A DNA stretch of 45,824 nucleotides from a virus, in IMG/VR virus record IMGVR_UViG_3300021368_001939, positions 1 to 45,824 of that record; one strand, 5' to 3'. The translations under genes were made by a program, and so were the position numbers. Positions 15,699-32,207 of this stretch are shown here, in pieces (the stretch's first letter is position 1; each line of letters opens with the position of its first letter). The notes under the pieces were generated by a model. It had not been told where the DNA came from, made no database searches, and saw only the letters and a list, made by a program, of their open reading frames with translations.

Positions 15699-16220
15699 TT
15701 AAGTATTTAGAAACTTTCCATAAGGAATTTCTCTCAGGTCGGCAATTTCACCTGCATATATCTCATAAAATTGTGTATCTGCTCTACTTAGTTTATAGTT
15801 TCTTATTTTTCCCCAGTGATAATTAAAACCAATAAATGCAAAATCATTGGGTACACTGTATATATCTGTACAAGCAATTAATGGATGTTGGTCATATTGT
15901 ATATTTGGTGATCTTGCAGTGTAAATATAAGTATAAAATTTTCCAGGAATGGGAACAGGAGTTACAGAATCTTTAACTGCCTCTAATATTTTTGACATTA
16001 ATTCATCAGGTGTTTCAATACCGATTAAATTTCCAACAATATTTCTTACTCGATTATTGTCATCATCTGTTGGTCTATTTGGATTTTTTAGGACTCCATC
16101 ATCATAAACATTAGAACCTACTTTTACATTTGGATCACTACTTGTAGTTACTTCACCAGTTTGAGAAACATAATAATATGATCTTCCTATTCTTCCTCCT
16201 CTTTTTATTGTTCTTGCCAT
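15699..16220 (-). CDS. Conserved virion structural protein (gp2- or gp3-position)
   Basis: The 173-residue protein has a basic start (MARTIKRGGRIGRSYYYV), then a C-terminal domain with PGKFYTYIYTARSPNIQYDQ, HPLIACTD and FIGFNYHWGKIRNY, a pattern I associate with small T4-like head/tail completion proteins. It shares its last ~20 residues with the 96-residue neighbour. In T4, gp2 and gp3 lie beside gp4, so DNA end protector or tail completion protein are candidates, but I cannot choose. It overlaps gp4 by 1 nt. Confidence 0.65.
   Translation of the reverse strand: MARTIKRGGRIGRSYYYVSQTGEVTTSSDPNVKVGSNVYDDGVLKNPNRPTDDDNNRVRNIVGNLIGIETPDELMSKILEAVKDSVTPVPIPGKFYTYIYTARSPNIQYDQHPLIACTDIYSVPNDFAFIGFNYHWGKIRNYKLSRADTQFYEIYAGEIADLREIPYGKFLNT
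15704..15710 (-). promoter_or_regulatory. Late promoter CTAAATA
   Basis: Plus-strand TATTTAG reads CTAAATA on the minus strand, 16 nt before the ATG at 15687 and inside the end of the upstream gene. Confidence 0.6.
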
Positions 16221-16660
16221 TACTTAATACCAAGTTCGTTTTCTGTAAGGACCTTAAACTCATAACCATGATCTAAACACCATTCTTTGGCGGCATTCCA
16301 CTTTGCCTGATTTTTAGCATACTCAACGACTTCATAGATATAACCTTTCGTCTTTCTTTGTTTGACTTTAGGTTCGATACACTGCTTAAATGGTTTGATT
16401 TCAATAATTGACTTTTTAATTTTTCCGTTATTATCTTTATATTTGATATAAAAATCTGGGAAGTATCTCCTTACTTTATTTGTAGTTGGATCATAGTATG
16501 GAATTATGGCCTCTTCACTACTCCAAGATAATATATTTTCATTTGTATCACAATATTTCATAAATTTGCGCTCCCATAGAGAACGATATATAATATTTCT
16601 ATGGTCTCCAACATATTTTTGAGGGTATAGTGGTTGGTATCTTCCTTTATAGGATGCCAT
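16220..16660 (-). other. gp4: Internal ORF for native-length gp4
   Basis: An in-frame ATG at 16658-16660 (minus strand) is preceded 6 nt upstream by GGAGAGGTC (16667-16675), a strong Shine-Dalgarno. The resulting 146-residue product matches normal gp4. The fused and unfused forms could both be made. Confidence 0.7.
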
Positions 16661-17131
16661 TATTTTGACCTCTCCGTTATCAATCATCCGAATTCTGGTA
16701 TCGGACATTTTTTTCTTAGTTTGCTTGCTATGCTTTTTACCTTTCCAACTTGGAGGACGCCTATTTAATACCTCCTCTGTTTTTGGATATGGATTTTTAT
16801 TTTTGGTTCCTTTTTTGCGTCCATTTACATTTTGATATTTTTTAAAGGATTCTCTATGCTGAGATTTTCTTTTTTGAACCTCATTGCTATCGGAAGACCA
16901 GTAATTAGTAGTATTAATTTTGCCTGCACATTTAGTAGAACAAAACTTATTATACCCTTGGGTATAGCTTATAAACTGGGTCTTTTCACCACAACACTTA
17001 CATATACCATCACCATCATACTTTTTATATTCATCATACAGTTTTTGAGTTGTATATCCGTGTGTCTTTATATGTGCCATCAATCCGCGAATTGATGAAA
17101 AAGACTTATCGCAAACTGGACAGTATGACAT
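16220..17131 (-). CDS. gp4: Head completion protein gp4 fused to homing-endonuclease-like zinc-finger/NUMOD N-terminus
   Basis: The 303-residue frame has two parts. Residues 158-303 start MASYKGRYQPLYPQKYVGD and contain IIYRSLWERKFMKYCD, PDFYIKYKD and IEIKPFKQ. This is the T4 gp4 (gp50/65) head completion protein with its nuclease-like fold, at normal length (146 versus 150). Residues 1-157 are foreign: a C2H2-type finger (CPVCDKSF..H...H, residues 4-24), a second Cys cluster (CKCC...FCSTKC) and a NUMOD3-like WKGKKHSKQTKKKMSDTR. Those modules belong to phage homing endonucleases. A strong internal ribosome site precedes Met158, so native gp4 may be made separately. Confidence 0.85.
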   Translation of the reverse strand: MSYCPVCDKSFSSIRGLMAHIKTHGYTTQKLYDEYKKYDGDGICKCCGEKTQFISYTQGYNKFCSTKCAGKINTTNYWSSDSNEVQKRKSQHRESFKKYQNVNGRKKGTKNKNPYPKTEEVLNRRPPSWKGKKHSKQTKKKMSDTRIRMIDNGEVKIMASYKGRYQPLYPQKYVGDHRNIIYRSLWERKFMKYCDTNENILSWSSEEAIIPYYDPTTNKVRRYFPDFYIKYKDNNGKIKKSIIEIKPFKQCIEPKVKQRKTKGYIYEVVEYAKNQAKWNAAKEWCLDHGYEFKVLTENELGIK

Positions 17132-17138: not shown

Positions 17139-17163
17139 ACTAATAATCAAGTAGTAGTATAGG

Positions 17164-17170
17164 TATTTAG
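17164..17170 (-). promoter_or_regulatory. Divergent late promoter CTAAATA (minus)
   Basis: TATTTAG reads CTAAATA on the minus strand, 32 nt before the gp4-fusion ATG at 17131. The two boxes form a symmetric pair in the 40-nt divergent intergenic region. Confidence 0.65.
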
Positions 17171-31742: not shown

Positions 31743-32207
31743 ATGAGACAATATAAAAACTATACCGATGAGGAATTTATAGAAGCATGGACTAATAGTG
31801 GATCTATAAGACAAGTTCTTAGTAAGATTGGATTGAGAGAGGCAGGAGGCAATTATGCTTGTGCTAAAAGAAAAGCAGAGACTTTGGGATTAACAAAGGA
31901 ACATATGCACGGACAAGCTCACCTAAAAGGTAAAACTCATACCTATACAACAAAACCAATCGAATATTATTTGACAGAAAACTCCTATCATTCATCTCAT
32001 AAACTTAAGTTGCGTTTGATTTCTGAAGGTCTAAAGGAACACAAATGTGAAGGTTGTGGTATTACAGAATGGAATGGTAAACCCACTCCAATTGAACTTG
32101 ACCACATCGATGGAAACAGGTATAATAATACCATAAACAACCTTCGCATCTTATGTCCTAACTGCCATGCTCAAACAGATACTTATCGTGGTAAGAATAA
32201 AAAGTAG
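31743..32207 (+). CDS. HNH homing endonuclease
   Basis: The 154-residue protein has an N-terminal helix-turn-helix-like part (YTDEEFIEAWTNSGSIRQVL) and a C-terminal HNH domain: CEGCG, ELDHIDGNRYNNTINNLRIL and CPNCH, giving the two zinc knuckles and the DH/N catalytic residues. This is a free-standing homing endonuclease beside tRNA genes, a common insertion site. It is preceded by a late promoter inside a hairpin. Confidence 0.88.
   Translation: MRQYKNYTDEEFIEAWTNSGSIRQVLSKIGLREAGGNYACAKRKAETLGLTKEHMHGQAHLKGKTHTYTTKPIEYYLTENSYHSSHKLKLRLISEGLKEHKCEGCGITEWNGKPTPIELDHIDGNRYNNTINNLRILCPNCHAQTDTYRGKNKK

Follow-up and report, generated by a model that had tools for sequence, protein, structure and literature searches.

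A DNA-targeting module fused in frame to gp4 of a T4-like cyanophage, a candidate intronless homing element with no nuclease domain of its own

Intronless and collaborative homing are already known (PMC2988022, PMC6083498). SegF, SegG, Mob and Hef of T4-like phages are optional genes that lie beside a conserved gene and are transferred with flanking sequence of their target gene (PMC2988022), and the Seg (GIY-YIG) and Mob (HNH) enzymes carry their own nuclease domain. In the collaborative homing of F-CphI in cyanophage S-PM2 and the trans homing of MobE/I-TevIII the functions needed for mobility are split between two genetic parts, with an intron involved and a dedicated homing nuclease. Homing enzymes near essential genes are known too, in an account where head completion proteins go unmentioned (PMC10448857). 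Head completion protein gp4 of T4-like phages is described as TnsA-like in fold and as a non-specific DNase whose activity is required in morphogenesis (Benler et al. 2020, Virology 543:7, as cited in PMC7824862). Its known form is non-specific and about 145-150 aa long. The free-standing endonucleases of PHROG 15137/15427 and a protein of Vibrio phage pv27 combine, in this order, a C2H2 finger, a Cys cluster, a linker and a TnsA/gp4-like nuclease; they stand as separate genes, each with a diverged nuclease of its own. The pv27 protein (L090 2501-3415), annotated as hypothetical, is itself likely to be a PD-(D/E)XK homing endonuclease. By analogy only, engineered zinc-finger nucleases likewise join a specific DNA-binding part, the zinc fingers, to a non-specific nuclease, FokI.

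The window, by which we mean the whole stretch of 45,824 nucleotides analysed here (IMG/VR virus record IMGVR_UViG_3300021368_001939), derives from an ocean phage, a T4-like cyanophage near Synechococcus phage S-SKS1. It encodes a full gp4 with 157 DNA-targeting residues ahead of it in frame, laid out as follows.

17162-17170 (-): CTAAATACC, a late-promoter-like motif upstream of gp4
16220-17131 (-): fused ORF of targeting module and gp4, ATG start, 303 aa, free of internal stops
17124-17131 (-): ATGTCATA, by comparison with empty alleles what remains of the native start of gp4 (MSY), now the start of the fused ORF
17060-17125 (-): C2H2 zinc finger, residues 3-24
16928-17002 (-): Cys4 cluster, residues 44-68 (C44, C47, C64, C68)
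16703-16753 (-): NUMOD3 DNA-binding motif, residues 127-143
16223-16660 (-): complete gp4, a TnsA-like PD-(D/E)XK nuclease by PHROG 218 and Pfam, residues 158-303
15699-16220 (-): gp2-like DNA end protector (PHROG 429, E 5e-15), next gene downstream of gp4

Residues 1-157 carry DNA-binding modules typical of intronless homing endonucleases. The finger matches PF00096 at E 2e-5, at the cut-off of that family; the NUMOD3 motif (PF07460) falls just under its cut-off in the window (E 0.0026) and lies above it in the homologues L073 (E 3e-5) and L017. The Cys4 cluster matched no Pfam family above cut-off; its spacing, C44-x2-C47...C64-x3-C68, is invariant in 7/7 aligned copies of this module type, which we call type B (C2H2, Cys4, NUMOD3), and the finger ligands C4, C7, H20 and H24 are likewise invariant in the alignment. 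The N-terminus is matched by the homing endonuclease profile PHROG 3339 (E 8e-5), and PHROG 15427 follows the window protein along residues 43-300. A sequence-only reading of this DNA had described an extra N-terminus of 157 residues made of a C2H2 finger, a Cys cluster and a NUMOD3-like motif and had likened it to homing endonucleases; the domain calls and, on the strength of NUMOD3, the finger and PHROG 3339, the likeness were both borne out. We found no nuclease domain in the module, and the sole nuclease is that of gp4 downstream. PHROG 218 ('head closure') covers residues 159-301 with positions 2-142 of its 148 (E about 1e-55), and Pfam places Tn7_TnsA-like_N at residues 197-297 (E 3e-22). 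Residues E187, D226, E244 and K246 are intact and are invariant across 51 gp4 sequences with and without modules. An AF2 model of the gp4 domain reached a pLDDT of 84-93, its best Foldseek match in the PDB being TnsA (1f1z, E 4e-4), whereas the packing of module against gp4 in the long form was modelled without confidence (linker pLDDT <50, pTM 0.47).

The neighbours of this gp4 are the usual ones, gp2 next to it and gp48 close by (the order after gp4 is gp2, a short unassigned ORF, gp48 and gp53), and the record, a 45.8-kb fragment, contains no other copy. By its resemblance to T4-type late promoters CTAAATACC is a putative one, and it is also present in empty alleles. Elsewhere in the window an ORF at 31743-32207 (+) encodes an HNH endonuclease (PHROG 10822, E 4e-46), probably another homing endonuclease. 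The locus differs from the PHROG 15137/15427 and pv27 enzymes in that its nuclease is the essential gp4 itself, and from engineered zinc-finger nucleases in being a natural fusion whose nuclease is an essential morphogenesis protein and whose specificity is putative. The gp4 modules lack the nuclease domain that Seg and Mob genes and other homing endonucleases have, sit at the start codon of their target gene and rebuild it, unlike SegF, SegG, Mob and Hef, and, unlike F-CphI and MobE/I-TevIII, were found with no group I intron. The open-access literature searched contained no report of gp4 carrying a fused or coupled targeting module.

The fusion is conserved well beyond this record. The N-terminus recurs, fused in frame to gp4, in the IMG/VR contigs L004 and L005 at 99-100% identity (in L004, an independent contig, 100% over 157 residues) and at about 60-64% identity in L017, L070/L073/L098, L097, L099 and L100; in these diverged contigs gp4 is, where measured, 70-77% identical to that of the window. 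All eight Cys/His ligands are invariant across the fused copies. Pairwise dN/dS among the diverged copies is 0.09-0.23 for the module and 0.06-0.20 for gp4 where computable, synonymous sites being near saturation in the widest pairs, which shows purifying selection on the N-terminus as strong as on gp4. Because the fusion is kept across diverged loci it is more than chance, and the protein is a maintained one; an open frame alone would be weak evidence. A decayed remnant was considered for the window module and rejected, as we saw no relaxed selection, broken frame or lost ligands. The suggestion, made from the sequence, of an endonuclease remnant that had landed in frame thus fails against the dN/dS of 0.09-0.23, the retention of every metal ligand and the horizontal movement described below.

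Most gp4 genes have no module. Among the loci retrieved, 72 are empty alleles in which gp4 stands directly at TTTAG-ATG, so that a search for gp4 with and without the N-terminus among relatives, as had been proposed, returns both forms: empty loci and conserved fusions. An ancestral origin of the module as part of gp4 is ruled out by this majority and by the existence of empty sites. Where the empty alleles L011, L028 and L071 read TTATTTAG ATGTCATATAAGGG, the window reads TTATTTAG ATGTCATACTGTCC; it keeps the first eight bases of the native start (ATGTCATA), followed by the module and then by a second gp4 start, ATGGCATCCTATAAAGG. In L017 a native start remnant ATGTCTTATAAGGGAAAATA is followed by a TATAAATA box, by the module with its own ATG and then by the new gp4 start, an arrangement that looks like an earlier state of the insertion. 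Compared with the empty loci L049/L056, L017 carries the insertion after 20 nt of gp4; the last 100 bp of the left flank are 94-98% identical, the first ~180 nt (~60 codons) of gp4 only 69-82% and the remainder mostly 84-100%. These alignments place the insertion within the first ~20 nt of gp4. A group I intron or an intein was also considered and rejected: there was no Rfam match to a group I intron, the gp4 start is duplicated and not split, and intein motifs were covered by the Pfam search.

The second gp4 start is preceded by a ribosome-binding site, and a short repeat marks the edges of a deletion seen in L006-L008.

17079-17085 (-): GATTGAT, left copy of a 7-bp direct repeat, left edge of the deletion in L006-L008
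16679-16685 (-): GATTGAT, right copy of the repeat, right edge of that deletion
16669-16675 (-): GGAGAGG, internal Shine-Dalgarno at the module/gp4 junction
16658-16660 (-): internal ATG, second gp4 start (M158), the sole ATG usable by gp4 in L006-L008

L006-L008 match the window exactly or almost exactly at the 5' end of gp4 and have lost the module by deletion between the two GATTGAT copies; what these loci retain is a true remnant of the module. The internal start must be usable there, since gp4 has no other ATG. The Shine-Dalgarno and ATG that had been read as preserving native gp4 at the junction are therefore real and serve gp4 in these module-deleted relatives, and a GGAG-type motif and its distance to the ATG are kept in L017, L073, L097 and L099. 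As the internal start works, the window is likely to make both the long form and the short gp4. In window-type loci the Shine-Dalgarno also encodes the in-frame linker GEVKI, so conservation of the frame could partly follow from the keeping of that start.

Type B is not the only module at this position. In S-SKS1 (L001 2641-2979) a different ORF, with a NUMOD3-like motif, an I-HmuI-type NUMOD and no nuclease, lies at the gp4 start; it belongs to type A, a second module family unrelated to type B. The annotated gp4 of that phage (HQ633071; L001 2976-3416) is a 63-aa protein with two apparent one-base losses in A-runs, probably homopolymer sequencing errors. Scans with the type A family gave partly overlapping sets of 30 and 40 loci, and in 29/30 and 37/40 of these the type A ORF abuts or overlaps gp4, stopping between -20 and +1 nt from the gp4 match; as the searches were seeded with gp4-linked proteins, these counts show where the family is located and not an unbiased frequency. 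The exceptions (1/30 and 3/40) are not near gp4, and 3/4 of them, including 2 of the 3 in the larger set, are GIY-YIG-like by sequence. A related protein in cyanophage S-H34, encoded elsewhere in the genome, has an HNH domain; another, in S-B68, shows nothing beyond a weak and partial GIY-YIG match. A hidden nuclease in the type A proteins was sought and rejected, none appearing in Pfam, PHROGs, NCBIfam, AF2 or PDB searches, and their N-terminal half held no invariant candidate residues for a nuclease. Comparison of an AF2 model with the PDB gave weak matches to an I-HmuI entry (1u3e, E 1e-3) and to the I-TevI DNA-binding domain (E 0.2). Type A dN/dS is 0.15-0.40, and many of the ORFs open with the native gp4 start (MSYKG...). 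In L086, L103-L106, L114 and L116 the gp4 start ATGTCATATAA, read in the other frame, ends the type A gene with a TAA. An N-terminal stretch of about FDTxxISxxLNIxxxGxIxxDT, predicted to be beta-alpha-beta, is conserved in type A alignment A5 (for example L119, L103 and L107) and is a candidate gp4-contact element.

A further case is Stenotrophomonas phage Marzo (L089 2501-3112), where an unannotated C2H2/Cys ORF of 203 aa is read from the start codon of gp4 and overlaps that gene in a different frame; YB07 and other near-identical phages are without it. The overlap includes an in-frame A AAC CCA heptamer that could allow a -1 shift into gp4, which we leave as a curiosity because the heptamer is not rare by chance and its bases are already in the empty relative. 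Searches for relatives found none of the Marzo module in IMG/VR and none of the window module in contigs from bacterial or archaeal genomes; in annotated phages the window module has weak matches, best in Marzo, pv27 and HGTV-1. By these comparisons the gp4 start is a recurrent landing site, a wider pattern that the sequence-only reading had not picked up. Independent insertions have repeatedly brought in two or more unrelated kinds of module, most of them encoded by separate genes that overlap gp4.

Close relatives are polymorphic for the module and include intact empty sites. In Synechococcus phage ACG-2014f, isolates US36, US44 and C8 have type A modules and the other matched isolates are annotated without one. 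The proteins concerned (L130, L131 and L136), annotated as 'group I intron endonuclease', lie beside gp4 and are without a nuclease domain; a search of L130 for a group I intron found none, and the annotation looks wrong. Against the empty isolate US17, US36 and US44 are 97-100% identical in the left flank up to the ATG. Between US36 and US17, 22/36 of the first gp4 codons then differ (16 of them synonymously) and the following 108 codons are identical; between Marzo and YB07 the first 48 gp4 codons have diverged. A module followed by 36-60 diverged gp4 codons reads as the mark of one-sided gene conversion. Transfer of module and gp4 start is also indicated by islands of identity: in L073, L097 and L099 the module and the first 180 bp of gp4 are 99-100% identical, with most flank windows at 67-93% and the gp4 end at 72-94%, and in the window, L004 and L005 the module and the whole of gp4 are 94-100% identical between unlike flanks (<65%). 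As a control, 2/23 near-identical pairs of empty alleles also lay in unlike flanks, and mosaicism alone therefore explains some islands. A one-sided diverged tract at the gp4 5' end, as co-conversion would leave, is present in three phage groups, a pattern that mosaicism can mimic in 2/23 pairs; mosaicism would not explain how insertion and one-sided recoding coincide in all three. No recognition site could be defined for the module, which we consider very probably mobile.

We favour the view, one of two raised by the sequence-only reading, that the fused protein is a new chimeric site-specific nuclease, because T4 gp4 is reported to be a non-specific nuclease, the catalytic residues are intact and the adjoining modules have no nuclease. 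The locus would then be an intronless homing element whose own contribution is confined to DNA targeting, with gp4 as the cutter, a reading to which we assign a probability of about 0.5; the role of gp4 as cutter is itself evenly poised. The internal start would yield gp4 of normal length for use in the virion, and the fused start would yield the long form. In the long form the module would bring the otherwise non-specific nuclease of gp4 to the gp4 5' end of a co-infecting phage that has no module, and repair of the break, with the genome that has the module as template, would copy both the module and the recoded gp4 start next to it. The interruption and recoding of the resident gp4 start would keep the element from cutting its own DNA. 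In type A the targeting protein, encoded by a separate gene overlapping gp4, would be a partner of gp4 and not a fusion; since type A and Marzo modules are unfused, physical partnership with gp4 is assumed there. Since the catalytic residues are kept in all gp4 sequences, they do not discriminate between readings. More tentatively, gp4 may be a shared nuclease that several unrelated selfish modules have recruited independently, through fusion (window type) or translational coupling (type A), to cut the gene 4 start of rivals while carrying a recoded, cut-resistant start.

The same signs of mobility would fit equally a homing element that lost its nuclease, or never had one, and that another phage endonuclease spreads in trans; the fusion to gp4 would then simply follow from where the element landed. 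A defunct endonuclease, I-TevIII, is known to be moved in trans by MobE (PMC2988022), collaborative homing occurs in cyanophage S-PM2 (PMC6083498), and the HNH protein encoded at 31743-32207 lies in the window as well. Purifying selection and the retention of all metal ligands are unexpected for such cargo, however, and two unrelated nuclease-less families at one gene, itself a nuclease gene, would have to be a coincidence; we consider this account unlikely.

Somewhat less probable still is a role in site-specific DNA binding alone, by which the module would shield the gp4 start against a rival homing endonuclease or repress the late promoter of gp4 in the manner of I-TevI autorepression. Intron endonucleases do act as autorepressors (PMC2988022), and nuclease-less binding proteins adjoining the presumed site and coupled to gp4 translation would suit either role. 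Neither role accounts for the in-frame fusion to a nuclease, nor, unless another enzyme cuts, for the one-sided transfer of module and recoded gp4 start between near-isogenic phages. Ordinary recombination at gene borders, shuffling modules beside gp4 with neither drive nor joint function, is improbable to a greater degree: cyanophage genomes are mosaic and islands do occur in 2/23 empty pairs, but unrelated DNA-binding modules came repeatedly to the very start of one gene, creating a new gp4 start each time, and the one-sided pattern recurs in three phage groups. That a sequencing or assembly error joined two frames, conceivable for an IMG/VR virus record that is probably a metagenome assembly, is ruled out for practical purposes by independent contigs sharing the frame at 100% and about 60% identity.

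Current models do not account for a family of nuclease-less homing modules tied to a single gene, and this holds whether or not gp4 is the cutter. If gp4 does act as the shared cutter, this would be a new kind of system beyond intronless homing. The enzyme that cuts would be a structural-assembly protein essential to the phage, and a phage that gave up the nuclease to evade the element would not survive. The element would carry a replacement for the sequence that it attacks, a natural counterpart of 'cleave and rescue' drives, in a design resembling that of zinc-finger nucleases. Such a system would account for the high variability of the gp4 start in marine cyanophages and would add to the evidence that homing enzymes take part in competition between co-infecting phages (compare PhiPA3 gp210, PMC11620839).
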